Shown here one piece after another: positions 3,687 to 28,834 of a DNA stretch of 64,000 nt; the stretch's first letter is position 1, and every line of letters begins with the position of its first letter. The position numbers and the translations under genes were made by a program. This DNA comes from Sulfurimicrobium lacus (GTDB taxonomy: Bacteria; Pseudomonadota; Gammaproteobacteria; Burkholderiales; Sulfuricellaceae), in assembly GCF_011764585.1 (NCBI RefSeq), contig NZ_AP022853.1:2823501-2887500 (forward strand), read 5' to 3'. Under the pieces are notes generated by a model. That model was not told the DNA's origin. It saw only the letters and a list, made by a program, of their open reading frames with translations, and did no database searches.

Positions 3687-4852
3687 GCTTCGACTTCGAC
3701 CGCGCGATCGACCGCAACGGCACGGCCAGCGTCAAGCACGATGGCTGCGCAGGCTATTTCGGCACGCCGGACGTGCTGCCGATGTGGGTCGCGGACATGG
3801 ATTTCGCCGCCCCCGAAGCCGTCACCCGGGCACTCGCGGCGCGCGCCGCCCATCCGGTCTACGGCTACACCTTCTACCCCGACGACCTCTACGAGGCCCT
3901 GAGCGCGTGGCTGCAAAAGCGCCACGGCTGGCAGGTCGAACGCGACTGGGTCATCATGGCGCCGGGGGTGGTGCCCTCGCTGCACGCCGCCGTGCTGGCC
4001 TTCGCCGCCCCCGGCGAGGCGGTGGTGGTGCAGCCGCCGGTGTATTTCCCCTTCTTCAGCGCCGTCACCGACACCGGCCGCAAACTCGTGCTCAATCCCT
4101 TGCGCCTGGAAAACGGCCGCTACGCTATCGACTTCGAGCAGCTCGAGCGCTGCGCCGCCGACGGCGCGCGCCTGCTACTGCTGTGCTCACCGCATAACCC
4201 GGTGGGGCGGGTATGGACCCCGGACGAACTGCGCGAAACCCTGCACATCGCGCGGCGGCACGGCATGACGGTACTGTCGGACGAAATCCACGCCGACCTG
4301 GTGTACCCCGGCGAGCGCCACACCGCCCTCGCCACCCTGGCACAAGCCGGCGACACACTGGTCACCGCCGTCGCCCCGAGCAAGACCTTCAACATCCCCG
4401 GGCTGGGCCTGTCCTGCCTGATCGTCCCCGACCCGGCGCAACGCACCGCGCTGCGCAAAGTCTTCGCCACCCTCGCCCTCGGCCACTCCAACCCCTTCAG
4501 CATCGCCGCCTTCGAAGCCGCCTACCGCGACGGGGAAGCCTGGCTGGACGCGCTGCTGGTCTACCTGCGCGACAGCCGCGATTTCGTCGCCGCCTACCTG
4601 GCGGAACATCTGCCCGGCATCCGGCTCATCCAGCCGGAGGGGACTTATCTGCTGTGGCTGGACTGCAGGGAACTAGGCATGAACGACGCGGAGTTGAAGG
4701 AATTCTTCGTGAGCACAGCACGCGTGGGAATGAATCCCGGCACGGTGTTCGGCGCTGGGGGCAGCGGCTTCATGCGGCTGAATATCGGGGCGCCGCGGCG
4801 TGTGGTGGCGGAAGCCCTGGTGCGGATCAGGGCAGCGATTGCCGAGCACTAA
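3683..4852 (+). CDS. PLP-dependent C-S lyase, MalY/PatB type; probable ovothiol sulfoxide lyase OvoB
   Basis: This is a fold-type I aminotransferase-like enzyme of the cystathionine beta-lyase (MalY/PatB) family. The PLP lysine is in SKTFNIPG near residue 234, and WVADMDF near the N-terminus and the SDEIHADLVY motif are family hallmarks. The TTG at 3683 overlaps the ovoA stop (TTGA), and the resulting N-terminus MSFDFDRAIDR matches MalY proteins; an in-frame TTG at 3668 is the alternative. Ovothiol synthesis needs a PLP enzyme to cleave the histidylcysteine sulfoxide made by OvoA, so the coupling points to that role (OvoB). A general cystathionine beta-lyase is the fallback. The family call is firm; the substrate is inferred from position. 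Confidence 0.85.
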   Translation: MSFDFDRAIDRNGTASVKHDGCAGYFGTPDVLPMWVADMDFAAPEAVTRALAARAAHPVYGYTFYPDDLYEALSAWLQKRHGWQVERDWVIMAPGVVPSLHAAVLAFAAPGEAVVVQPPVYFPFFSAVTDTGRKLVLNPLRLENGRYAIDFEQLERCAADGARLLLLCSPHNPVGRVWTPDELRETLHIARRHGMTVLSDEIHADLVYPGERHTALATLAQAGDTLVTAVAPSKTFNIPGLGLSCLIVPDPAQRTALRKVFATLALGHSNPFSIAAFEAAYRDGEAWLDALLVYLRDSRDFVAAYLAEHLPGIRLIQPEGTYLLWLDCRELGMNDAELKEFFVSTARVGMNPGTVFGAGGSGFMRLNIGAPRRVVAEALVRIRAAIAEH

Positions 4853-4872
4853 AAGTCAATAGCCATCTTTTT

Positions 4873-6753
4873 CTAAGTCATCAGCTTGCGCAGCAGCGGT
4901 TCCAGCTTCTCCGCCGCCATGGGGTGGGAAATGAAGTACCCCTGGCCCATGGTGCATCCGATATCCTTGAGCAAGTCATATTGCGCCTGCTCCTCGATAC
5001 CCTCCGCCACGGTGTACATCTGGAGGTTGCGCCCCAGCGCCTCGATCGTTTTCACGATCGCCAGATTCTTTCCGTTGGTCTGAATTTCGCGCACGAAGGA
5101 AGCATCGATCTTGAGGCAAGATATGGGCAATTCCTTGAGATATTGCAGCGACGAGTAACCGGTTCCAAAGTCATCGATGGCGATCGAAATCCCCATGTCG
5201 CGCAGGGCTTTGAGCTTGCCCAGGGCTTTTTCCGCACTGCCCATCAGCACGCCTTCGGTGATCTCGATTTCAAGATAGCTCGGCGGCATGCGCATTTCCC
5301 CCAGCAATCTTGCGAGCTGGCCGATGAAGGCATCGTCACGGAACTGCAGTGGTGATACGTTGACCGCCATCTTCAACAGGAAGCCTTGGTCCGACCACGC
5401 CCGCCACTGCGCACAGGCCTTGCGGAATACCTGTTCGCCGATGGCACCGATCAGGCCGGCTTCCTCGGCAACGGGAATAAACTGCAGCGGTGGCACCATG
5501 CCGTTTTCCGGGCAATTCCAGCGCACCAGCGCTTCCACGGCACTCACCCTGCCGCTCGCCATATCGATCTGGGGCTGAAAGTGCAGCACGAACTCGTCCC
5601 GCTCCAGCGCCAGCTTGAGACGCTGCTCCATGCGATAGAACCCGGACATTTCCTCCGCCAGATCCGCCGAGTAGAACTGGATGTTGTTCTTGCCCTCGCG
5701 CTTGGCCTTGTACATCGCGGCATCGGCGTTCTTGATCAGGTCTTCGGATGTTTCGCCGTCAGCGGGAAAAACCGCGATTCCGATACTGCCGGTCACACGG
5801 AATTTGTGCTCGTTCACCGTAAAAGTCTGGTCCAGCAACGCCAGGATTTTCTCGGCGCTGCGGAATTGTTCGTCCTTTTTTTCCATTTTTTCGACAATGA
5901 CGAATTCGTCACCGCCAAAGCGCGAAATGAATATCTGGGCGTTCTTGCCGCCTCCCTCGGATACGCCGCCCTCGAACTGCTTGGCGATCTGGCGCAGCAA
6001 GGCATCCCCCACGGTATGGCCGAAGGTATCGTTGATGTATTTGAAGCGATCCAGGTCGAGAAACATCACTGCAAAATGGCGCCCCCCGGCTGCGGCTTCA
6101 TAAATCCAGTCATGCAGCTTCTCCATGAGCCAGCGCCGGTTGGGCAGCATGGTCAAGGGATCGTACTTGGCCGAAATCTCGATCTGCTGCTCGTAAACCC
6201 TGCGCTGGGTGATGTCCACATTGGAGGAACGCACGCCGATGGTATTGCCATTTTCGTCCTGTACCGTACCGCACAGGTGCTCGACCCAGCGAATATCGCC
6301 ATCCCTGGTAACAATGCGAAACTCGACGGTTTCGGCCAAGCCCTCGCCGTTGATGTTGTGGATATGCGCGTTCCACACCTCCATGTCGTCGGGGTGGATA
6401 AGCCGGTTCATGAAATTGGGTTCACGATAAAAATCATCCTGAACGTAGCCAGTCAGCGACTTGCAGGCGGGGGAAACGTATTCGTACTCGCCGCTGATTT
6501 TGCGGAAGTAGTTGAACTCGGGTGCGAAATCCGCGAGGGCGGAGAACAGCCGCGCATTGCCGGCCAGCCTGGCGCGCAACACCCCGACCTTGCCCACCAG
6601 AAGACCGAGCACGATCCCGAGCGACATGGGAACGACCACCATGCGCGGGTAAAAGGTTTTCATGACGAAAATGCTCTGGATGGCAAAGAAAGACAGCACA
6701 ATGGCCAACGCCAGAAAAATCGAGATCAGGTAAGTTCGCGCGGATTTATTCAT
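4873..6753 (-). CDS. Membrane PAS-GGDEF-EAL protein (c-di-GMP turnover)
   Basis: A 626-residue inner-membrane protein with two N-terminal membrane segments (about residues 8-30 and 36-55), a PAS/PAC sensor region (about 70-190), a GGDEF domain (about 200-370) with an intact RFGGDEF motif, and an EAL domain (about 385-620) with EALVRW and DDFGTGYSSL. Both catalytic motifs look intact, so it may make and degrade c-di-GMP, or one domain may only regulate. It converges on the ovoA pair with 20 bases between stops. Its start lies about 380 bases from that of nifJ, read the other way. Confidence 0.93.
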   Translation of the reverse strand: MNKSARTYLISIFLALAIVLSFFAIQSIFVMKTFYPRMVVVPMSLGIVLGLLVGKVGVLRARLAGNARLFSALADFAPEFNYFRKISGEYEYVSPACKSLTGYVQDDFYREPNFMNRLIHPDDMEVWNAHIHNINGEGLAETVEFRIVTRDGDIRWVEHLCGTVQDENGNTIGVRSSNVDITQRRVYEQQIEISAKYDPLTMLPNRRWLMEKLHDWIYEAAAGGRHFAVMFLDLDRFKYINDTFGHTVGDALLRQIAKQFEGGVSEGGGKNAQIFISRFGGDEFVIVEKMEKKDEQFRSAEKILALLDQTFTVNEHKFRVTGSIGIAVFPADGETSEDLIKNADAAMYKAKREGKNNIQFYSADLAEEMSGFYRMEQRLKLALERDEFVLHFQPQIDMASGRVSAVEALVRWNCPENGMVPPLQFIPVAEEAGLIGAIGEQVFRKACAQWRAWSDQGFLLKMAVNVSPLQFRDDAFIGQLARLLGEMRMPPSYLEIEITEGVLMGSAEKALGKLKALRDMGISIAIDDFGTGYSSLQYLKELPISCLKIDASFVREIQTNGKNLAIVKTIEALGRNLQMYTVAEGIEEQAQYDLLKDIGCTMGQGYFISHPMAAEKLEPLLRKLMT

Positions 6754-7131: not shown

Positions 7132-10722
<3,591 letters not shown>

Positions 10723-18017: not shown

Positions 18018-18362
18018 ATGAATTTTGATTTCGACAAAATGATGGTCCTGGCGCGGGAGAACCCCCAGGAATTCGAGCGCCAGCGCCACGATCTCCTAGA
18101 AGAGGTCATCGAGAGCCGGGCGGACATCAAATGGGCCAAAGCGTTTCAGTCCCGTATCGACATGGAACGGAGAAAAGCGAGAACCCCCCTCGGCTGCTGC
18201 ATTCATCTATATTCCAGGATGTGGGACAGCTTCTATAATCTGGATGAGCAATTCCAAAGATTACTGACGGCACTCGATCCCCGGAACGGCAATAAAACGC
18301 CTCAAGCTGAAGAAACAAAATCGCTTCCCTCAGCAAAGATACTCATGTTCAGAAAACGCTGA
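18018..18362 (+). CDS. DUF3135 family protein
   Basis: A 114-residue soluble protein starting MNFDFDKMMVLARENP, with FERQRHDLLEEVI and a helical remainder typical of DUF3135, a family of unknown function in beta- and gammaproteobacteria. GGGGGTG lies just upstream of the ATG. Its last 14 bases overlap the 3' end of the convergent lon gene. Confidence 0.8.
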   Translation: MNFDFDKMMVLARENPQEFERQRHDLLEEVIESRADIKWAKAFQSRIDMERRKARTPLGCCIHLYSRMWDSFYNLDEQFQRLLTALDPRNGNKTPQAEETKSLPSAKILMFRKR

Positions 18363-20775
18363 TCACTTTCCCTTCAGAGTCTTTCTCCGCAAACACAACT
18401 TTCACCACATCCTTGAACTGACGGGCGAAGTGCACCTTCACCCCTTCCCGGATGTGCTCGGGCAGTTCGTCGAAATCGCGCCGGTTGGCTTCGGGCATGA
18501 TCAGTTCCATGATCTTGATGCGCCGCGCTGCGATGACTTTCTCGCGCACCCCGCCGATGGCCAGCACCTCGCCGGTCAGGGTCAGTTCGCCGGTCATGGC
18601 CAGGGGGCGGGCGACTTTCTGGTTGCGCGCCAGCGACAGCAGCGCCGTCGCCATGGTGACGCCGGCGCTCGGGCCGTCCTTGGGCGTCGCGCCTTCGGGC
18701 AGGTGCAGGTGCACGAAAGCCTCGTCGAAGAACTTCAGGTCGCCCTTGAATTCCTTGAGATGCGAGGTGACGTAGCTATAGGCGATCTCGGCCGACTCCT
18801 TCATCACGTCGCCCAGCTGGCCGGTGAGCTTGAAGCCGCGATTGCGGGTGTGGACGCGCGTCGCCTCGATGGAGAGCGTCACACCGCCCATCGCGGTCCA
18901 GGCCAGCCCGGTGACCACGCCCAGCCCGCTCAATGGTTTTTCATTGGTGAACAATGGCTTGCCGAGATAAGTTTCCACCTGTTCCACGCCGAGACGCGCC
19001 GGGCCTTGCTCGCCGTTCATCAGCTTGACGACCGATTTACGTACCAGCCGGCCGAGCTGTTTCTCTAGGTTGCGCACCCCGGCCTCGCGGGCATAGCCTT
19101 CGACGACATGTTTCAGACCGGCATCGCTGATCGCCAGCTCGCCGCGTTTCATGCCCGCCTTTTCCAGTTGCTTGGGCCACAGGTGATGCTTGGCAATGGT
19201 GACCTTCTCGGAGGTGATGTAGCCTGCCAGGCGGATCACTTCCATGCGGTCGAGCAGCGGCCCCGGAATGGTGTCGAGCTGGTTGGCGGTACACACGAAC
19301 AGCACCTTGGACAAATCGAAGCGCACGTCGAGGTAATGATCGAGGAAATCGCTGTTCTGTTCCGGGTCCAGCACTTCCAGCAGGGATGAAGCCGGGTCGC
19401 CCTGATAGGAGGCGCCGATCTTGTCCACTTCGTCGAGCATGATCACCGGGTTGGCCACGCCACATTCCTTGATGGCCTGCACGAACTTGCCCGGCATGGC
19501 GCCAATGTAGGTGCGGCGGTGCCCCTTGATTTCCGCCTCGTCGCGCATGCCGCCGAGGGAAAAGCGGTAGAACTCGCGTCCCAGGGCATCGGCAATGGAG
19601 CGCCCGATGGAAGTCTTGCCCACCCCCGGCGGGCCGACCAGCAGGACGATGGAACCGGCGATCTCGCCCTTGTGCGCGCCCACCGCGAGGAATTCGATGA
19701 TGCGTTCCTTCACGTCTTCCAGACCGTCGTGGTCGCGGTCGAGAATCTTGCGCGCGCGCTTGAGGTCGAGCTTGTCTTTCGAATACTTGCCCCACGGCAA
19801 CTGGGTCAGCCAGTCGAGGTAATTGCGCGTCACCGCATATTCCGGCGAGCCGGTTTCGAGCATGGACAGCTTCTGCATTTCTTCATCCACGCGTTGCTGC
19901 GCCGCCTCGGTCAATTCGAGCTTGGCGAGGCGTTCGTGGAAGCGGTCGATCTCGGCGGTCTTGTCGTCCTTGGCCAGGCCGAGTTCCTTCTGGATGGCCT
20001 TGAGCTGTTCGCGCAGGAAGAACTCGCGCTGGTTCTTGGTCATCTTCTCGTCGACCTGCTCGCGAATCTGCGACTGCAGGCGTGCGACATCGAGTTCCTT
20101 CTTGATCAGCACCAGCACTTTTTCCATGCGGCGGCGCAGGTTGAGTGCCTCCAGCACGTCCTGCAGCTTCTCCTTGGGCGCGGTGGTGAGCGAAGCGGCG
20201 AAATCGGTGAGCAACGAGGGCTCGTTGGGGCTGAAGCGGTTGAGGAAGAACTTCAGCTCTTCGCTGTAAAGCGGGTTGAGCGGCAGCAGCTCCTTGATCG
20301 AGTTGATGATCGCCATGGCGTAGGCTTTCACCTCGTCGGTATTGGCGCCGCGGTTGTCGTTGGGGTATTCCACCTGCGCCAGGTAAGGCGCCTTGTCCGA
20401 GAGCCATTTGACGATACGGAAACGCTTCTGCCCCTCCGCTATGAACTGTATCTTGCCGTCGGCGCGCACCGGGTGATGCATGTGCACCGCGGTACCCGTA
20501 GCGTAAAAATCCTGCGGCTTGACGTCGTCGGTACTGCTCGGACGCACCATCACCAGGCCGACCATTTTCTGCGCGGTTTCGCCGATTTTCTCCACGGTAT
20601 CCAGCCATGGTGCCATGTTCATCAGCAGCGGCAGGGTCTGCGCCGGGAAGAAGGGGCGTTCGCTGAGCGGCAGGAGATAAAGGGTATCGGGCAGCGTCTG
20701 TACCGTCAATGCAAGCTCGGAAGACCCAATCGGTTCGATCACTACGCCTTCAATCGCTTCGTTTACGTCAGACAT
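18349..20775 (-). CDS. lon: ATP-dependent protease Lon
   Basis: The soluble AAA+ serine protease that degrades misfolded and regulatory proteins. The 808 residues contain the N-terminal LonN domain, a coiled coil, the AAA+ module with Walker A GPPGVGKTS (about residue 360) and Walker B VIMLDEVDK, and the C-terminal protease domain with catalytic Ser in KDGPSAGVTM and the Lys about 43 residues later. The ATG at 20775 is preferred because AGGA sits five bases before it; the ATG at 20781 would abut the ribosome site. A sigma-32-like promoter lies upstream. Confidence 0.96.
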   Translation of the reverse strand: MSDVNEAIEGVVIEPIGSSELALTVQTLPDTLYLLPLSERPFFPAQTLPLLMNMAPWLDTVEKIGETAQKMVGLVMVRPSSTDDVKPQDFYATGTAVHMHHPVRADGKIQFIAEGQKRFRIVKWLSDKAPYLAQVEYPNDNRGANTDEVKAYAMAIINSIKELLPLNPLYSEELKFFLNRFSPNEPSLLTDFAASLTTAPKEKLQDVLEALNLRRRMEKVLVLIKKELDVARLQSQIREQVDEKMTKNQREFFLREQLKAIQKELGLAKDDKTAEIDRFHERLAKLELTEAAQQRVDEEMQKLSMLETGSPEYAVTRNYLDWLTQLPWGKYSKDKLDLKRARKILDRDHDGLEDVKERIIEFLAVGAHKGEIAGSIVLLVGPPGVGKTSIGRSIADALGREFYRFSLGGMRDEAEIKGHRRTYIGAMPGKFVQAIKECGVANPVIMLDEVDKIGASYQGDPASSLLEVLDPEQNSDFLDHYLDVRFDLSKVLFVCTANQLDTIPGPLLDRMEVIRLAGYITSEKVTIAKHHLWPKQLEKAGMKRGELAISDAGLKHVVEGYAREAGVRNLEKQLGRLVRKSVVKLMNGEQGPARLGVEQVETYLGKPLFTNEKPLSGLGVVTGLAWTAMGGVTLSIEATRVHTRNRGFKLTGQLGDVMKESAEIAYSYVTSHLKEFKGDLKFFDEAFVHLHLPEGATPKDGPSAGVTMATALLSLARNQKVARPLAMTGELTLTGEVLAIGGVREKVIAARRIKIMELIMPEANRRDFDELPEHIREGVKVHFARQFKDVVKVVFAEKDSEGKVISVF

Positions 20776-20813
20776 GTTCATCCTGGGAGGCAGTTATTTT
20801 TACCCTACGGACT

Positions 20814-20839
20814 TTGTGGCGAATGTTTCACAATTCAAG
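20814..20839 (-). promoter_or_regulatory. Candidate heat-shock (sigma-32) promoter of lon
   Basis: Read on the minus strand, CTTGAA (20834-20839) and CCACAA (20814-20819) are separated by 14 bases, close to the sigma-32 pattern CTTGAA / CCCCAT with 13-15 base spacing. It ends about 40 bases before the lon start. Lon is a heat-shock gene in proteobacteria. The -10 match is imperfect. Confidence 0.45.
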
Positions 20840-20987
20840 CCCGCGCTGCAAATGCGCCCCGTCAGGGGCTGGATACTACGTAGTTTCCATACACGATATA
20901 CAGGCTGTAATTTATACCCTGGGAAATTCGAATGTGTAACCATCAATTGAAAATGCCAATCCTATCGGCATACAGGAGATGCGCATC

Positions 20988-21368
20988 ATGGCACACGAAG
21001 GCCTGCACGAAAACGAAGAAAAGCTTGCCCCGGCGACCCTGGATTCCCACCGTGCCATCCTCTCCCTGATGGAGGAATTCGAGGCGGTCGACTGGTACCA
21101 CCAGCGCGCCGATGCCTGTAACAACGCGGAATTGCGCGCCATTCTGCTGCACAACATGCACGAGGAAATGGAGCACGCTGCCATGATCCTGGAATGGCTG
21201 CGCCGCAGTACCCCCAGGCTGGACGAAATCCTGCGTACTTACCTGTTCAGCCAGGGCGACATCACCCTGGCCGAGGAAGTGGCGACCGGCAAGATCGCCG
21301 GCGCGGAGCCGCTCCAGGGCGGGGCGGCGACACCGCATCTGACGGTCGGCAGCATGAAAGGAGCCTGA
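20988..21368 (+). CDS. Encapsulated ferritin-like protein (EncFtn) with encapsulin targeting tail
   Basis: A 126-residue ferroxidase cargo of an encapsulin shell. EncFtn is half a ferritin: two helices that form an active site only on assembly into an annular decamer. The sequence has the conserved MEEFEAVDWYHQR and HNMHEEMEHAAM motifs supplying Glu/Glu/His iron ligands, then EWLRR and RTYLF. The C-terminus is a flexible tail ending LTVGSMKGA, matching the encapsulation peptide type LTVGSLRG. The ATG at 20988 sits nine bases after AGGAG; the ATG at 20979 abuts that site. The shell gene begins one base after this stop. Confidence 0.93.
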   Translation: MAHEGLHENEEKLAPATLDSHRAILSLMEEFEAVDWYHQRADACNNAELRAILLHNMHEEMEHAAMILEWLRRSTPRLDEILRTYLFSQGDITLAEEVATGKIAGAEPLQGGAATPHLTVGSMKGA

Positions 21369-21369
21369 C

Positions 21370-22188
21370 ATGAACAACACCAATCTTCCGTTTGACGCCT
21401 CCATTCTCACGCGCATGGAGGAACTGGCGGTGACCGAGGCGCGCAAGGTCCTCACGGCGCGCCGCTTCCTCCCGGTGGACGGGCCTTTCGGCCTGGGCTA
21501 TGTGGCTGCCCCGGCAGGCAACGACGACCAGCGCCAGCACGCTTCCCACGGCGCCACCACCATCATTTCCCGCACCATCCCGGTGCCCATGATCTTCCGC
21601 CACTTCACCCTGAGCCGGCGCCGTGTTTCCGCCCATACCGAGATGGGCCAGCCGCTCGATCTCAGCGCCCTCGGCCAGTCCACCCTGGAGCTGGCATCGC
21701 GCGAGGAGGAGCTGATCTACCGCGGCGATGCGGAATTCGGCCTGGACGGGCTGTGCACCGTGGAGAGCCGCAACCATCTGCCGGGCGGCGACTGGAACGA
21801 CGTGGAACAGGTGCTGCGCGACGTGCTGTCCGCCGTCACCTTGCTGGACAAGTCGCATTTTCACGGCCCCTATGCGCTGGCGCTCGAACCGCGCCTCTAC
21901 AACAACCTGTTCCGGCGCTACCCGGAAGGCTCCGACCTGCTGCAGATCAACCATCTGCAAGGCCTGTGCACCAACGGCATTTTCAAGACCGATATCGAGG
22001 GCGCAGTGCTGGTCGCCCCCGAGGCCGGCACCCTGCTCATCGGCGAGGATTTCACCGTGGACTACACCTTCCCCGATTCGGCCCATTTCAACTTCACTGT
22101 GCGCGAGTCCATGGTGCTGCGCCTCGATGCGCCCAAGGCGATCTGCACCATCACCCCGGCAACTCAGGGCCAGCGGACCAAAAAATGA
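21370..22188 (+). CDS. Encapsulin shell protein (family 1, HK97 fold)
   Basis: Forms the icosahedral protein nanocompartment that holds the ferritin-like cargo. The 272 residues show encapsulin features: the N-terminal helix that docks the cargo peptide, the E-loop region around PMIFRHFTLSRRR, the central YHGPYALAL-like motif (here FHGPYALALEPRLYNNL), and the C-terminal DFTVDYTFPDSAHFNFTVRES strand region. Length is typical of family 1 shells. One base separates it from the cargo gene, and AAAGGAG precedes the start, so cargo and shell are made together. A FAD reductase follows 37 bases after its stop. Confidence 0.94.
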   Translation: MNNTNLPFDASILTRMEELAVTEARKVLTARRFLPVDGPFGLGYVAAPAGNDDQRQHASHGATTIISRTIPVPMIFRHFTLSRRRVSAHTEMGQPLDLSALGQSTLELASREEELIYRGDAEFGLDGLCTVESRNHLPGGDWNDVEQVLRDVLSAVTLLDKSHFHGPYALALEPRLYNNLFRRYPEGSDLLQINHLQGLCTNGIFKTDIEGAVLVAPEAGTLLIGEDFTVDYTFPDSAHFNFTVRESMVLRLDAPKAICTITPATQGQRTKK

Positions 22189-22224
22189 CGCCGCGCGGCA
22201 GCACTGACGAAGGGAAAACGCGCC

Positions 22225-23421
22225 ATGACTAAATTCGATTACGTGATCGTGGGCGGCGGCCTGGCCGGTGCCTCGGCCATCGAGGGCATCCGGGAGCGCG
22301 ACGAGAAGGGGAGCATCCTGCTGCTCAGCGCGGAAGCTCACCCGCCCTACGACCGCCCGCCGCTTTCCAAGAAACTGTGGTTCGGCAAAACCCGGGTGGA
22401 AGAGATCTTCCTGCACGACCAGGCGTTCTACGACGAGCGTGGGGTAAACATGCTGCTCGGCGAAAAGGCGGAGAAACTCGATCCGCATGAGAAAACCGTC
22501 GCCACTGCAAGCGGCAAGCGCTACCTCTTCGGCAAACTGCTGCTGGCAACCGGCGCTTCGCCGCGCCGTAGCGACATTCCCGGCGGCGACCTGGAAGGCA
22601 TCTGCTATTTCCGCACGCTCGACGATTACCTGCGCATGCGCAGCGATGCGAAAGTCGACAGGACCGCGCTGATCGTCGGCGGCGGGTTCATCGGCTCGGA
22701 GCTTGCCGCCGCGCTCAACCTCAATCTCGAAGTCACCATGATTTTCCCCTCGCTCACTCTTTGTCGCCGGGTGTTTCCGGAAGCCCTCGGCATGGCGGTG
22801 CAGCGACATTTCCAGGAACGCGGCATCCGCGTGATCCACTCCGACTCTCCGGTGTCCTTCAGCAAGAACGGCGGCGGATTCCGCACTGAGACCATGAGCG
22901 GCAAAAGTATCGAATCCGACCTGCTGATCGTCGGTATCGGCGTCGATCCGGACATCGGCCTAGCCCGGGACGCGGGGCTGGAAGTGGGTAACGGCATCGT
23001 GGTCAACGAGTATCTCGAAACGACCCATCCCGACATTTACGCGGCCGGCGACAACGCCTTTTTCCCCTATCCTGCGCTGGGCAAGAGCATGCGCATCGAG
23101 CACTGGGACAACGCGCTGACGCAGGGACGCTGGGCCGGCTCGAACATGGCCGGGGCGCACGAGCCTTTTACCTACCAGCCGTATTTCTTTTCGGACCTGT
23201 TCGAGTTCGGCTACGAAGCCACCGGCGAGGTGGACACCAGCCTGGAAACCTTCGCCGACTGGCAGAAGGAAAACCATACCGGGGTGATCTATTACCTGCG
23301 CGAAGGCCGCGTACGCGGGGTGATGATGTGCAACGTCTGGGACCGGCTCGATGCCGCGCGCGAACTGATCCGCAAGGGGGAAATCGTCACGCACGACAGC
23401 CTGCGCGGCGCCATACGCTGA
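22225..23421 (+). CDS. FAD/NAD(P)H-dependent ferredoxin reductase-like oxidoreductase in encapsulin operon
   Basis: A 398-residue flavoprotein of the AIF/ferredoxin-reductase (pyridine nucleotide-disulfide oxidoreductase) class. It has an N-terminal FAD site VIVGGGLAGASAIEGI, ATGASPRR, an internal NAD(P)H site LIVGGGFIGSELAAAL and a second FAD motif IYAAGDNAFF, plus a C-terminal domain. It lacks the redox-active disulfide. Being third in the operon after cargo and shell, it is a good candidate for the reductase that returns stored ferric iron to the ferrous state, directly or through a ferredoxin. Its last residues include SLRGA, resembling the ferritin tail SMKGA. The ATG at 22225 lies beyond AAGGGAAAA. 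The function in iron release is inferred. Confidence 0.88.
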   Translation: MTKFDYVIVGGGLAGASAIEGIRERDEKGSILLLSAEAHPPYDRPPLSKKLWFGKTRVEEIFLHDQAFYDERGVNMLLGEKAEKLDPHEKTVATASGKRYLFGKLLLATGASPRRSDIPGGDLEGICYFRTLDDYLRMRSDAKVDRTALIVGGGFIGSELAAALNLNLEVTMIFPSLTLCRRVFPEALGMAVQRHFQERGIRVIHSDSPVSFSKNGGGFRTETMSGKSIESDLLIVGIGVDPDIGLARDAGLEVGNGIVVNEYLETTHPDIYAAGDNAFFPYPALGKSMRIEHWDNALTQGRWAGSNMAGAHEPFTYQPYFFSDLFEFGYEATGEVDTSLETFADWQKENHTGVIYYLREGRVRGVMMCNVWDRLDAARELIRKGEIVTHDSLRGAIR

Positions 23422-23523
23422 ACCCGGGATGGCCGCGCCCTGAAGCATCGGGGCGCTGACGAAGAAAATTTGTGCCGCGGCACAAACAAATCATCGCCGT
23501 CCTTGCAATACAATAGAAGCCCT

Positions 23524-24096
23524 ATGAAAAAAATCATTCCCTGGCTTCTAATCCTTCTCTGCGGCAGTGCCTCCGCCTTCGAATTCCCGTCCAGCTCACC
23601 TGCAACCCAAACCATCGCCGCCAGCGGCACCGTCCAGCTGGCGTTCTCGCCGCAAGACGATGCCGGCGCACTGGTGATCCAAGCCATTCGCGGCGCCAGA
23701 AAACAGGTGCTGGTGCAGGCCTACAGCTTCACCCATCGCCAGATCGCCTATGCCCTGATGGATGCCAGGCGCCGTGGAGTGGACGTGCAACTGATCGCCG
23801 ACGACGAACAGATACGCCGGATGGAGCGCGGCCTGGTGCCGAGGATCGCCGCTTCCGGGGTGACCACATTCGTGGATAACGTCCACAGCAGCGCCCACAA
23901 CAAAATCATGGTGATCGACGCCGGCACGCCCCAGGCCGCGGTCATCACCGGATCTTTCAATTTCACCCAGGCAGCCCAGAACAAGAACGCTGAGAACCTG
24001 CTGGTGTTCCGTGGCAACCCCCAGCTGACGCAGGCCTATCTCGCCAACTGGCAGCGGCACCGCGCCCATGCCAGACCGTATGAACCAGGCCGTTGA
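23524..24096 (+). CDS. Secreted phospholipase D-like nuclease (Nuc family)
   Basis: A 190-residue periplasmic protein with a signal peptide (about residues 1-19, ending SASAF) and one PLD motif: HNKIMVID followed by GSFNFTQAAQNKNAEN. Single-HKD enzymes of this kind (Nuc endonuclease) dimerise to build the active site and cut DNA non-specifically. The ATG at 23524 starts the signal peptide directly; the open frame upstream is not homologous. It begins 102 bases after the encapsulin-operon reductase and is followed 15 bases later by an MscS channel gene. Confidence 0.88.
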   Translation: MKKIIPWLLILLCGSASAFEFPSSSPATQTIAASGTVQLAFSPQDDAGALVIQAIRGARKQVLVQAYSFTHRQIAYALMDARRRGVDVQLIADDEQIRRMERGLVPRIAASGVTTFVDNVHSSAHNKIMVIDAGTPQAAVITGSFNFTQAAQNKNAENLLVFRGNPQLTQAYLANWQRHRAHARPYEPGR

Positions 24097-24111
24097 TTAC
24101 AGGGCGCGCCA

Positions 24112-25374
24112 ATGAATAACACTCAAGAAATCCGCAATCTCCTGTTCGACCTTTTCAGCGACCTGCAGCAAGCCGACATCTGGTGGCAGCTCGGCGTGCT
24201 CGTATTCAGCCTGGTCCTGGCCTGGCTGTTCATGCGCCTGATCCGCGCTCAGGTGCCGGTGCAGGAAGGCGCCTGGAAACTGGGCATGGGGGGCGTCAAC
24301 CGCATTACTTTTCCATTGGCCGCACTACTGCTGGTATTGAGCGGCAAAGCCGTGCTGCAGCACTGGCAGCACGTCGCCCTGCTCAACGTCACGGTGCCGC
24401 TGCTGCTCTCGCTGGCCCTGGTACGACTCGCCGTGTACGCGCTGCGCCACATTTTTGCCCCGAGCGGCTGGCTGCAAACTTCCGAACGTTTTATCGCCAT
24501 CCTGATCTGGAGCGGCGTGGCCTTGCACATCACCGGCTTTCTGCCGGAAATACTGCAAGCGATGGACGATCTCAGCTTCCACGTCGGCAAAAACAAGATA
24601 TCCCTGCTGCTGATTTTGAGCGGACTGCTCTCCGTTGCCGTGACCATGCTGGTCGCGCTATGGATCGCCAGCAGCATGGAGGGGCGCCTGATGCGCGCGG
24701 AGCATTTGAACATGAGCCTGCGCGTGGTCCTGGCGAAATTCCTCCGCGCCGTGCTGGTGCTAATCGGGATGCTCGTCGCCCTGCCCCTCGCCGGCATCGA
24801 CATTACCGTGTTATCGGTGTTTGGCGGCGCGCTCGGCGTGGGCATCGGTTTCGGCCTGCAGAAAATCGCCAGCAATTACGTCAGCGGTTTCATCATCCTG
24901 CTCGATCACTCCATCCGCATCGGCGACCTGGTAACCGTGGACAACCGTTACGGCACGGTCACCAAAATCACTTCCCGCTATGCGGTGATCAAGGGCTCGG
25001 ACGGCACGGAAGCGCTCATCCCCAACGAAACCCTGATCACCTCCACGGTGCTGAACCACTCCTACACCAACCATGAGCTGCGCGTATTCATCCCGCTGCA
25101 GGTCAGCTACGACAGCCCGCTCGAAAAGGCCATGGAAATCATGATGGAGGAGGCGGGCAAACACGCGCGCGTGATGCAGGAGCCGCCACCCCAGGTATTT
25201 CTGAAGAATTTCGGCGATAGCGGCATCGATCTCGAACTGAGCGCCTGGATCAACGATCCGGAAGAAGGTCAGCAGAACCTGCGCTCGGAAATCAACCTGG
25301 GAATATGGCGGCGCTTCCAGCAGGAAGGTATTGAAATTCCTTATCCGCAACGCGTCGTTCGGCTGGTGTCTTAA
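24112..25374 (+). CDS. MscS-family mechanosensitive ion channel
   Basis: A 420-residue inner-membrane protein with about five membrane helices. The pore helix and beta domain are unmistakable: GALGVGIGFGLQKI, then YVSGFIILLDHSIRIGD, VTKITSRYAVI and IPNETLITS. It vents ions under hypo-osmotic stress. A C-terminal alpha/beta domain (about 320-420) ends IPYPQRVVRL, as in this family. The stop is separated by five bases from the next gene. Confidence 0.94.
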   Translation: MNNTQEIRNLLFDLFSDLQQADIWWQLGVLVFSLVLAWLFMRLIRAQVPVQEGAWKLGMGGVNRITFPLAALLLVLSGKAVLQHWQHVALLNVTVPLLLSLALVRLAVYALRHIFAPSGWLQTSERFIAILIWSGVALHITGFLPEILQAMDDLSFHVGKNKISLLLILSGLLSVAVTMLVALWIASSMEGRLMRAEHLNMSLRVVLAKFLRAVLVLIGMLVALPLAGIDITVLSVFGGALGVGIGFGLQKIASNYVSGFIILLDHSIRIGDLVTVDNRYGTVTKITSRYAVIKGSDGTEALIPNETLITSTVLNHSYTNHELRVFIPLQVSYDSPLEKAMEIMMEEAGKHARVMQEPPPQVFLKNFGDSGIDLELSAWINDPEEGQQNLRSEINLGIWRRFQQEGIEIPYPQRVVRLVS

Positions 25375-25379
25375 AAAAT

Positions 25380-26054
25380 ATGGAAGATATATTCGAAGAA
25401 CTCCAGCTGCACGTCGGCGACCGCATGCAAATCGAGGTGCCGTCACGGCGCCACGACATGAAATTTTTCACCACCCTGGTGGGCTATGTGAAAGGACTCA
25501 GCGTGCTGCTGCGCACGCCCATCGTGGACAGCTTGCCGCTACCCATGCGCGATGGCGAGAAACTGATCGTGCGCGGGTTTTCCGGCAAGGAAACCTTCTC
25601 GTTCGAAACCACGATCGAACGCATTTGCCGCGAACCCTTCTACTACCTGCATCTGACCTACCCCGAAGTCATCAGCACCACGAAGATCCGCGATGCGGAA
25701 CGCGTCAGGGTCAACCTGCCGGTCAAGGTCACGCCGGCAGGCGCAAGCATCGCCAAACACGCGACGATTTCCAATATCAGCACGGCGGGCATCCTGATCG
25801 ATGCCGAAGAAGAGCTGGGCGAAAAGGACCAGGAAATCAACGTTTCCTTCCACTTCACCATCCAGCCCAACGACTACGATGCCCACATCGAAACCGCTGC
25901 GCTGATCCAGAACGTGGCACTGCAGGACAACCCGTCGGGAGATTTTACTTTTCAGTACGGCGTCAAGCTGCTCAAGCTGCAAAGCAGCCAGGCGATCCTG
26001 CTGCAAAATCTCATCTACCAGAAACTGCTGGAGAATCACCACAACCTGACGTGA
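25380..26054 (+). CDS. PilZ-domain c-di-GMP receptor (YcgR-like flagellar brake)
   Basis: A 224-residue two-domain protein. The N-terminal part (about 1-105) resembles the YcgR N-terminal domain (LHVGDRMQIEVPSRR). The C-terminal PilZ domain has the c-di-GMP-binding RDAERVRVNLPV and the NISTAGILID motif. It probably couples c-di-GMP to motility or surface behaviour; no flagellar genes are in the window. It directly follows the mscS gene. Confidence 0.88.
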   Translation: MEDIFEELQLHVGDRMQIEVPSRRHDMKFFTTLVGYVKGLSVLLRTPIVDSLPLPMRDGEKLIVRGFSGKETFSFETTIERICREPFYYLHLTYPEVISTTKIRDAERVRVNLPVKVTPAGASIAKHATISNISTAGILIDAEEELGEKDQEINVSFHFTIQPNDYDAHIETAALIQNVALQDNPSGDFTFQYGVKLLKLQSSQAILLQNLIYQKLLENHHNLT

Positions 26055-26073
26055 GGAAGGCGGCATCGGATTG

Positions 26074-26186
26074 ATGGGTATCGCTGCGCTCAACCCACCC
26101 TACGGCTCTATGACCCAGGCGATGCCCAACATCCGCGCCACGGAAAAATGTAGGTTGGGTTAGCCCCGCCTGGGCGTAACCCAACA
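26074..26186. repeat. Dispersed palindromic repeats downstream of the PilZ gene
   Basis: Two hairpin-forming units lie in the gap before alaS: a segment at 26074-26105 ending CAACCCACCCTAC, and 26149-26186, where TGTAGGTTGGGTTAG pairs with CGTAACCCAACA. They belong to the same GGTTGGGTTA / TAACCCAACC kind as the element at 47647-47765. The remainder of the gap (26055-26212) holds nothing else I can name. Confidence 0.6.
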
Positions 26187-26212
26187 AACCCAATCTTCCT
26201 ACCTCGCGTTGA

Positions 26213-28834
26213 TTACAACTTGCCCTTCACCCACTCGACCACGCCGGCCAGCGCCTGCGGCAGATTTTCCGGCTGGGTGCCGCCGGCCTGGGCCATGTCG
26301 GGACGGCCGCCGCCCTTGCCGCCGACCTGCTGGGCGACGAAGTTGACCAGTTCCCCCGCCTTTACCTTGCCGGTCAGGTCGGCGGTCACGCCTGCAATCA
26401 GGGTGGCCTTGCCGTCGTCCACTGCGGCCAGCACGATAGCGGCGCTCTTGAACTTGTCCTTGAGCTTGTCCAGGGTCTCGCGCAGGGTCTTCACGTCCGC
26501 ACCTTCCAGGGTGGCCGCCAGCACTTTCGCGCCGTTGATTTCCACCGCTTGATTGGCGAGGTCGTCGCCCTGGCTGGAGGCGAGTTTGGATTTGAGCCTG
26601 GAGAGTTCCTTTTCCAGGGCTTTCACGTTTTCCATCACCTGGGCGATCTTGGCCGGCAATTCCTGCACCGGAGCCTTGAACGCGCCCGCGGCCTGTGCCA
26701 GCAATGCCTGCTGGTCCTGCACGTAGGCCAGGGCGTTATCGCCGGTGATCGCTTCGATGCGGCGCACGCCGGCGGCCACGCCGCTCTCGGCCAGGACCTT
26801 GAACAGGCCGATGTCGCCGGTGCGCGCCACGTGCGTCCCGCCGCACAGCTCGCGCGAGCTGCCGATGTCCAGCACCCGCACCTCGTCGCCGTATTTCTCG
26901 CCGAACAGCGCCATGGCGCCCAGTTTCTGGGCTTCCTCGATGGGCACGACGCGCGTCTGGGTGGCGACGTTGGCGAGGATCTCGGCGTTGACGATGTCTT
27001 CCACGCGGCGGATGTCCTCGGCCGACATGGCCGCATTGTGCGCGAAGTCGAAGCGCGTCTTGTCCGCGTCGACCTGCGAGCCTTTCTGCTGCACGTGGCC
27101 TCCCAGCACTTCGCGCAATGCCTTGTGCATCAGGTGGGTGGTGGAGTGGTTGCGCATGGTGCGGGCGCGTGCCTGGGCGTCCACCCTGGCGCTCACGCCG
27201 TTGCCGACGCTGAGCTTGCCGGTGCGCACCACGCCGTGGTGGCCGAACACGGTGGCCTGGATTTTCTGCGTGTCTTCCACCGCGAAAATGCCGTGCGAGC
27301 TGTGCAGCACCCCGCGATCGCCCGCCTGCCCGCCCGACTCGGCGTAGAACGGCGTGTCGTCCAGCACCACCACGCCGCTTTCGCCTTCCAGCAGTTCCTT
27401 CACCAGCGCGCCGTCCTTGTACAGGGCCAGCACCTTGCCCTTGGCTTCCAGCTTGTCGTAGCCGTGGAAAACGGTAGCCGGGCCGTCGTATTCGAGGTTG
27501 GCTGCCATCTTGAACTTGCCGGCGGCGCGCGCCTGTTCTTTCTGGTGCGCCATGGCGGCATCGAAGGCCGCCGCATCCACACCGACGCCTTGTTCGCGGC
27601 ACACGTCCTGGGTCAGGTCGAGCGGAAAACCGTAGGTGTCGTGCAGCTTGAAGGCGGTCTCGCCGTTGAATGTCCTGTTGTCCTTGCCAGCCATCTCGGC
27701 CAGTTCCGCTTCCAGGATCGCCATGCCGTGCTCGATCGTGGCGAAGAAGCGCTCTTCTTCCTGCTTCAGCACATCGGTGACGCGGGCCTGGTTTTCCTTC
27801 AGCTCGGGATAGGCATCGCCCATCTCGCTCACCAGGTCGACCACCATTTTGTGGAAGAAGGCGGCGCGGGCGCCCAGCTTGTAGCCGTGGCGGATGGCAC
27901 GGCGGATGATGCGGCGCAGCACGTAGCCGCGCCCTTCGTTGCCGGGGATGATGCCGTCGGCGATGAGGAAGGAGCAGGCGCGGATGTGGTCGGCCAGCAC
28001 CTTGAGGGACGGGCTGTCCAGGTCGGCGCAATGGGTTTCGCGCGCGGCGGCTTTGATCAGGGCCTGGAACAGGTCGATCTCGTAGTTGGCATGCACGCCC
28101 TGCAGCACGGCGGAGATGCGCTCCAGTCCCATGCCGGTATCGACACTGGGCTTGGGCAGCGGGTGCATCACGCCCTGCTCGTCGCGGTTGAACTGCATGA
28201 ACACGTTGTTCCATATCTCGATGTAGCGGTCGCCGTCCTCCTCGGGCGTGCCGGGCAGGCCGCCGGGGATGTGTTCGCCGTGGTCGTAGAAGATCTCGGT
28301 GCAGGGACCGCAGGGGCCGGTGTCGCCCATCATCCAGAAGTTGTCGGAAGCGTAGCGCGCGCCCTTGTTGTCGCCGATGCGGATCACGCGCTCGGCGGCG
28401 AGGCCCATTTCCCTGGTCCAGATGTCGTAAGCCTCGTCGTCCTCGGCGTAGACCGTGACATACAGTTTCTCCTTGGGCAGCTTGAACACTTCGGTGAGCA
28501 GTTCCCAGGCGTACTTGATGGCGTCGCGCTTGAAGTAGTCGCCGAAGCTGAAATTGCCCAGCATCTCGAAGAAAGTGTGGTGACGCGCGGTGTATCCGAC
28601 GTTTTCCAGGTCGTTGTGCTTACCCCCGGCACGCACGCACTTCTGCGAGCTGGCTGCGCGGGTGTAGGGACGCTTGTCGAAGCCGAGGAATACGTCCTTG
28701 AACTGGTTCATCCCGGCGTTGGTGAACAGCAGGGTCGGGTCCTCGTGCGGCACCAGTGAGCTGGACGCCACCACGGTGTGCCCCTTGGAGGCGAAGTAAT
28801 CGAGAAATTGCTTACGGATTTCACTGCTTTTCAT
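26213..28834 (-). CDS. alaS: Alanyl-tRNA synthetase
   Basis: Charges tRNA-Ala. The 873 residues contain the class II catalytic domain ([27 protein letters not shown]), the tRNA-recognition domain, the editing domain with zinc ligands in [11 protein letters not shown] and CGGTHV, and the C-terminal DHHA1 oligomerisation domain with [15 protein letters not shown]. The ATG at 28834 gives the universal N-terminus [14 protein letters not shown]; the open frame to 28924 reads through a palindromic repeat and is not coding. Confidence 0.97.

Follow-up and report, generated by a model that had tools for sequence, protein, structure and literature searches.

Gene organization of the encapsulin locus

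The 64,000-nt stretch of Sulfurimicrobium lacus DNA analysed here (from NZ_AP022853.1, and referred to throughout as the window) belongs to a complete genome of 3.83 Mb (G000), and contains three consecutive genes encoding an encapsulated ferritin-like protein (EncFtn), a family-1 encapsulin shell, and a flavoprotein oxidoreductase. All three are intact open reading frames (ORFs) on the + strand, in the order and place described in the first-pass annotation of this DNA. That annotation gave the intervals as one and 37 nt; the first was borne out, whereas the second is a difference between coordinates and the actual gap between shell and reductase genes is 36 nt. The principal features are as follows.

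20876..20903, + strand: segment upstream of EncFtn, resembling the upstream region of EncFtn in genome G375 by shuffle comparison
20953..20971: imperfect palindrome ATGCCAAT-CCT-ATCGGCAT, immediately 5' of the EncFtn ribosome site
20988..21368, + strand: EncFtn, encapsulated ferritin-like protein, 126 aa; intact ORF with profile match and ferroxidase residues
21333..21365, + strand: targeting peptide PHLTVGSMKGA at the C-terminus of EncFtn; the sole match to the tail pattern in the genome
21370..22188, + strand: family-1 encapsulin shell, 272 aa; intact ORF matching NF041155 and PF04454
22225..23421, + strand: AIF-like oxidoreductase dependent on flavin adenine dinucleotide (FAD) and NAD(P)H, 398 aa; intact ORF matching Pyr_redox_2 and AIF_C

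Judging from the sequence, the three genes likely share one transcript. The coding strand shows no terminator-like site between the shell and reductase genes, and the sequence spanning this gap folds no better than its shuffles (z 0.75). A search of the coding strand from 20780 to 26220 found no sigma-70-like promoter, and the palindrome could be an operator.

The cargo and shell are an ordinary, known iron-storing encapsulin module. EncFtn scores 126.4 bits against PF22277 (cut-off 27) and 123.2 bits against TIGR04535, narrowly below the curated cut-off of 125; the assignment is still supported by the Pfam match, the active-site residues and the shell partner. Iron in Rhodospirillum rubrum EncFtn is reported to be coordinated by Glu32, Tyr39, Glu62 and His65 (PMC5012862), and these correspond with an alignment offset of 2 to E30, Y37, E60 and H63 of the window protein. 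The shell scores 196.7 bits against the family-1 encapsulin model NF041155 (cut-off 100) and 168 bits against PF04454 (cut-off 24.3). The targeting tail, called clear in the first-pass annotation, holds up well: ferritins of four relatives end in PRLTVGAMKGA, PHLTVGSLKGA, PRLTIGAMKGA and RMTVGHMKGA, and a degenerate pattern scanned across the whole genome matches once, at EncFtn, with no match to the reversed-pattern control. The module thus resembles the R. rubrum Rru_A0973-type system in its ferritin-like cargo, ferroxidase residues, C-terminal peptide and position directly 5' of a family-1 shell gene, and differs in that the window cargo falls just below the TIGR04535 cut-off and that the window and two relatives examined carry a reductase gene after the shell.

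The reductase and its lack of a loading peptide

The third gene product is, by its profile and PDB sequence matches, an AIF-like or ferredoxin-reductase-type flavoprotein. It scores 206.8 bits against Pyr_redox_2 (cut-off 26.1) and 60.6 against AIF_C (cut-off 25.9), a domain combination shared with AIF and with the BphA4/putidaredoxin-type ferredoxin reductases. The best match of solved structure is mitochondrial AIF (E 2.9e-56), followed by the ferredoxin-reductase types, although the matched AIF chains are longer than the window protein by at least ~100 residues. None of the best 25 of its 42 NCBIfam matches reaches an equivalog cut-off, the highest score being 241.3 against HcaD, which requires 450. 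A structure prediction from 11 sequences gave a mean pLDDT (predicted local distance difference test) of 60 and was not used. A search of viral contigs for the reductase returned 18 stretches with the pattern and no relatives.

No targeting peptide was found at the C- or N-terminus of the reductase; the tail pattern is absent and the N-terminus begins at the FAD-binding strand. The protein ends in a tail of the SLRGAIR type, and its orthologues have similar tails whether or not a shell was detected in their genomes. Because the tag is absent and the tail is alike regardless of the shell, we reject the reductase as encapsulin cargo, and without a loading tag it should stay cytosolic. A folded enzyme of 398 residues would not be expected to pass the narrow pores of encapsulin shells, and the reductase should therefore act from the cytosol.

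Distribution of the reductase beside the shell

Scanned with aligned shells of this subtype, 84,980 species genomes yielded 27 loci, possibly omitting the window's own genome. With a profile built from 20 reductases, 32 shell loci were then searched: the window, these 27, and four further loci found in whole genomes, among them L116 with its classical shell. Neighbouring genes were called with a crude longest-ORF script and some calls are spurious; the counts given here rest on profile searches. EncFtn precedes the shell gene in all 27 scanned loci (the copy in L060 is cut by the contig end). The reductase follows the shell directly in two of them, L058 from Sulfuricella sp. T08 and L059 from the Sulfuricella metagenome-assembled genome (MAG) nzgw577, so that with the window it is next to the shell in three of 32 loci, or three of the 29 that are readable downstream (L061, L073 and L083 end just past the shell). 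Within the closest subclade, whose shells are 78–83% identical to that of the window, it adjoins the shell in three of six loci and is absent beside it in L057 (MAG STA_57), L060 (MAG STA_41, with 4 kb readable downstream of the shell) and L039 (G375). It is beside the shell in none of the 23 readable distant loci, two of which (L064 and L068) have a gene for a more remotely related flavoprotein at over 6 kb from the shell.

The first-pass annotation had asked whether the reductase is repeatedly next to EncFtn and encapsulin, and had named its absence from the loci of close relatives as a finding that would speak against the proposal. The association does recur in two Sulfuricella genomes, but the absence is also real in part, in half of the close loci as well as in every readable distant one. 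The description of the operon as carrying its own reductase is weakened accordingly: the adjacency stands, but the enzyme is absent beside most shells, present in genomes without a detected shell, and untagged.

A phylum-wide sample of 398 genomes contains 33 with an EncFtn match at E 0.001, of which 21, including the window, lie above the cut-off. The 20 other above-cut-off loci were examined and the 12 weak matches were left out. Tail and shell are both absent from 18 of these 20 loci and both present in two (L115 and L116, which are also among the 32), and the reductase profile matched at none of the 20 within the stretch examined, which extends downstream for just 0.9 kb in L107, the shortest case. 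Short EncFtn-like proteins with neither tail nor shell gene thus outnumber the encapsulated kind in this sample (L027, L025 and L034, together with the 18 of L106–L125).

The reductase in genomes without a detected shell

Orthologues with at least 67% identity to the reductase are present in nine of 22 genomes of a family sample, where two more proteins below 40% identity passed E 1e-40. At the level of the order, 21 of 399 genomes have a match at E 1e-90, ten of them with at least 67% identity, and PF04454 is matched in 15 of 399; both order samples contain 399 genomes and were taken as the identical set. Pooling the samples gives 12 genomes with an orthologue of at least 67% identity, and a shell is present in five (G000, G004, G010, G011 and G375). 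Even here the genes are not always neighbours: shell and reductase are on separate contigs in G011, and 66 kb apart on one contig in G375. PF04454 was not matched in G015, G017, G018, G055 or G171 of the order sample, and G001 has no EncFtn match; all six have the reductase at 67% identity or more. In G014 the contig breaks off 45 nt before the reductase gene, and this genome is counted on neither side. Conversely, G012, which is 85% complete, has a shell and no reductase match.

Relationships among the genomes were taken from an alanyl-tRNA synthetase tree of 16 genomes, partly picked for having the reductase. Across four independent contrasts in shell presence the reductase changes on average in the same direction in 1.3, in the opposite direction in 0.2, and stays unchanged in 2.6, which with so few differing pairs is not significant. 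In the reductase trees the three shell-adjacent copies are placed apart, and forcing them into a single clade costs 155 log-likelihood units (approximately unbiased test, p-AU 8e-37). The proposal that the reductase is an encapsulin-specific subfamily is rejected by this tree, as the shell-adjacent copies do not form one clade.

History of the lon–PLD site

The three genes lie between a leftwards-transcribed lon gene and a gene for a PLD-like nuclease. The latter is followed by MscS and PilZ genes, in an arrangement common to the window and to G018, G017, G015 and G019.

18349..20781, – strand: gene for the Lon protease, flanking the block on its left
20850..23505 (edges ± ~10 nt): block of ~2.65 kb between lon and the PLD gene, comprising EncFtn, shell, reductase and the upstream segment
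23524..24096, + strand: PLD-like nuclease gene, right flank of the block, with its ATG at 23524
24112..25374: MscS gene, downstream of the PLD gene
25380..26054: PilZ gene, following MscS

The lon and PLD genes are adjacent in the same-genus genomes G017, G015 and G019, with roughly 90 nt between them, and from this comparison of gene order the three genes probably entered the site as one block. The equivalent site of G018, also of the same genus, has the order lon, short repeat element, reductase, PLD. In this genome, which is 91% complete, there is no EncFtn or shell gene at the site and no match to PF04454, and the sole EncFtn-like match lies elsewhere and below the cut-off. The element (L023, ~7309–7434, between lon and the reductase) is short and mobile-looking, with 17-nt inverted ends; allowing one mismatch at most, this end occurs 83 times in G018, three times in the window genome, four times in G015, and not at all in G017 or in the reversed control. 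G018 has also kept the region surrounding the EncFtn upstream segment of the window, although it lacks EncFtn (none of 500 shuffles was as good). Its reductase is 89% identical to that of the window, with a ratio of nonsynonymous to synonymous substitution (dN/dS) of 0.134 against the window copy, inside the range of the other pairs listed (0.113–0.279), and so still seems to be under constraint in the absence of a shell. The most economical account is that the triad arrived together and G018 then lost the encapsulin pair, the alternative being the reverse, with the reductase at the site first.

The segment at 20876–20903 resembles the region upstream of EncFtn in G375, with one of 500 shuffles as good in what was one of 14 comparisons. 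An EncFtn promoter common to the relatives was considered and rejected: among the six relatives compared, G375 was the one to stand out, and T08, G010, G011, G012 and G111 did not. In nzgw577 (L059) shell and reductase are 288 nt apart, and between them, at 4697–4984, is a repeat whose inverted ends are CTAGTAGTCAGTCA...TGACTGACTACTAG.

Iron context and comparison with known systems

PF00210, which covers ferritin, bacterioferritin and Dps, has no match in the complete genome of the window, this being the ferritin-like family searched, and none in the 91% complete G018; it was matched in eight of ten genomes asked and in 14 of 14 controls. The encapsulin is therefore the sole ferritin-type store found in the window genome. 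Two ORFs, of 809 and 946 aa, account for all BFD domains in this genome, which has no stand-alone Bfd. That G018 keeps the reductase with neither a PF00210 ferritin nor an encapsulin detected argues against release from this store as the main duty of the enzyme.

The first-pass annotation started from the premise that release of iron from encapsulins is not well described, which is out of date: EncD of Myxococcus xanthus, a ferric reductase that binds flavin and is packaged in the shell, is reported to liberate Fe2+ from it (PMC11202242, citing Eren et al. 2024). The same 2024 review, in the part that deals with EncFtn and IMEF systems, gives iron release as yet to be shown for them (PMC11202242). 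EncD is described as a tagged cargo of about 11 kDa (PMC12693112). It is like the window reductase in that NAD(P)H and flavin chemistry is encoded for an iron encapsulin as a candidate release step, and differs, by description and not by sequence comparison, in being a small tagged cargo where the window has an untagged Pyr_redox_2 enzyme of 398 aa. For Thermotoga maritima, shell-bound flavin is reported to have no clear effect on release in vitro (PMC8610991). A Bfd-like ferredoxin is reported from 70% of IMEF operons (Giessen 2019, PMC6668986); it is of the 2Fe-2S type, many copies have an N-terminal targeting-like motif, and the majority of the IMEF-bearing Firmicutes are described as having no ferritin or bacterioferritin genes (PMC6668986). 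These operons resemble the window in encoding a redox protein with cargo and shell in mostly ferritin-free genomes, as PF00210 finds none here, and differ in having a 2Fe-2S ferredoxin, often with the targeting-like motif, and another cargo family, in place of an untagged flavoprotein. EncD and the IMEF ferredoxin thus make a redox protein encoded alongside an iron encapsulin a familiar theme. Among the papers listed, none deals with an encapsulin operon that includes an AIF-like or ferredoxin-reductase-like enzyme, which is a weak sign of novelty.

Possible roles of the reductase

We favor an interpretation in which the locus is an iron-storage module with a loosely linked, facultative cytosolic reductase. 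By analogy with R. rubrum, EncFtn would oxidise Fe2+ at a ferroxidase center on the dimer interface, and its C-terminal peptide would hold it inside the family-1 shell, where ferric mineral may accumulate. The AIF-like enzyme, probably made from the same transcript, would draw electrons from NAD(P)H and, presumably in the cytosol, could hand them to a small carrier or to free flavin. Any help in re-reducing the stored iron would then be indirect and given from outside the shell. As the reductase is free-standing in relatives and kept where the encapsulin is missing, it is better viewed as a facultative partner than as a dedicated encapsulin component.

Several observations weigh against so loose a link. 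In the order sample the reductase is present in all five genomes whose shell is of the close subtype, whereas at 67% identity or more it occurs in only ten of 399, in raw counts that ignore kinship; this overlap is striking and is the best evidence for a link. Sulfuricella sp. T08 has the triad in the same order with a second gap of 35 nt and other neighbours, and the same order and gaps of 35–36 nt in differing surroundings suggest that the three genes travel together. Lacking both a PF00210 ferritin and a stand-alone Bfd, the window genome would also be expected to want a release partner.

A second reading is that the reductase is a dedicated release enzyme: with NAD(P)H as donor it would reduce a carrier, a flavin or the shell itself, and would thereby turn encapsulin Fe3+ back into Fe2+ from outside, where EncD acts inside. 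The co-directional genes with their 36-nt spacing, the apparent insertion of all three as one block at the lon–PLD site, the recurrence of the triad in T08 and (with the longer second gap) in nzgw577, and an encapsulin that is the only ferritin-type store found in a genome with BFD confined to two long ORFs are all consistent with it. But the reductase is missing from beside three of six close shells and all 23 readable distant ones, it is conserved where no shell was found, including in G018, it is unmatched in the shell-bearing G012, and in nzgw577 an inverted-end repeat splits it from the shell. We therefore regard a dedicated release enzyme as possible but doubtful. A broader form of the idea, in which the triad serves Sulfuricella and its kin as a compact, transferable unit for both storing and releasing iron, an untagged cytosolic flavoenzyme discharging the core from outside through a diffusible carrier as a second independent solution beside EncD, seems unlikely.

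A third reading is that the reductase is a stress-linked electron donor, for oxygen, nitric-oxide or iron-sulfur repair, sharing the operon only through the same stress need. Reductase homologues of 42–44% identity in G077 and G029 (L050 and L051) adjoin Rrf2-type regulators and a hemerythrin-type protein, beside a NorB-type nitric oxide reductase in G077 and NnrS in G029. The closest models for the G077 regulator are NsrR and RirA, with scores under the cut-off of each; the hemerythrin-type protein was tested by profile in G077, and that of G029 belongs to the same cluster. A nitric-oxide link is possible for these distant homologues. In G017 and G015 the orthologues follow a second FAD oxidoreductase (L028, 5875–8525, and L029, 7506–10330), with a 4-nt overlap in G017; the second enzyme of L028 is nearest to the PRK06370/MerA type. 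Such neighbours would suit a stress donor, but they belong to the 42–44% homologues or to other sites and none flanks the window copy, so that we consider this role improbable. That SLRGAIR is a weak loading peptide by which the reductase is packaged with EncFtn is scarcely credible, since SLRG is only superficially like the GSL-type tails, the TVG core is absent, the same kind of tail is found in orthologues where no shell was found, and the single genome match to the tail pattern is EncFtn.

If the reductase does release iron, it would provide a route from outside the shell beside the inside route of EncD; if it does not, the locus is a caution against inferring function from one tight operon, given a sister genome that keeps the enzyme with the encapsulin missing. 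The natural variants (triad, encapsulin pair alone, and reductase alone) are ready-made comparisons, and a complete genome with no PF00210 match makes S. lacus a clean organism for what an encapsulin alone does in iron storage.

A different gene recurs near some of the distant shells. In L069, L071 and L072 members of one gene cluster lie downstream of the shell; by eye the product is like a metal-transporting ATPase, and in L069 it has a histidine-rich start.

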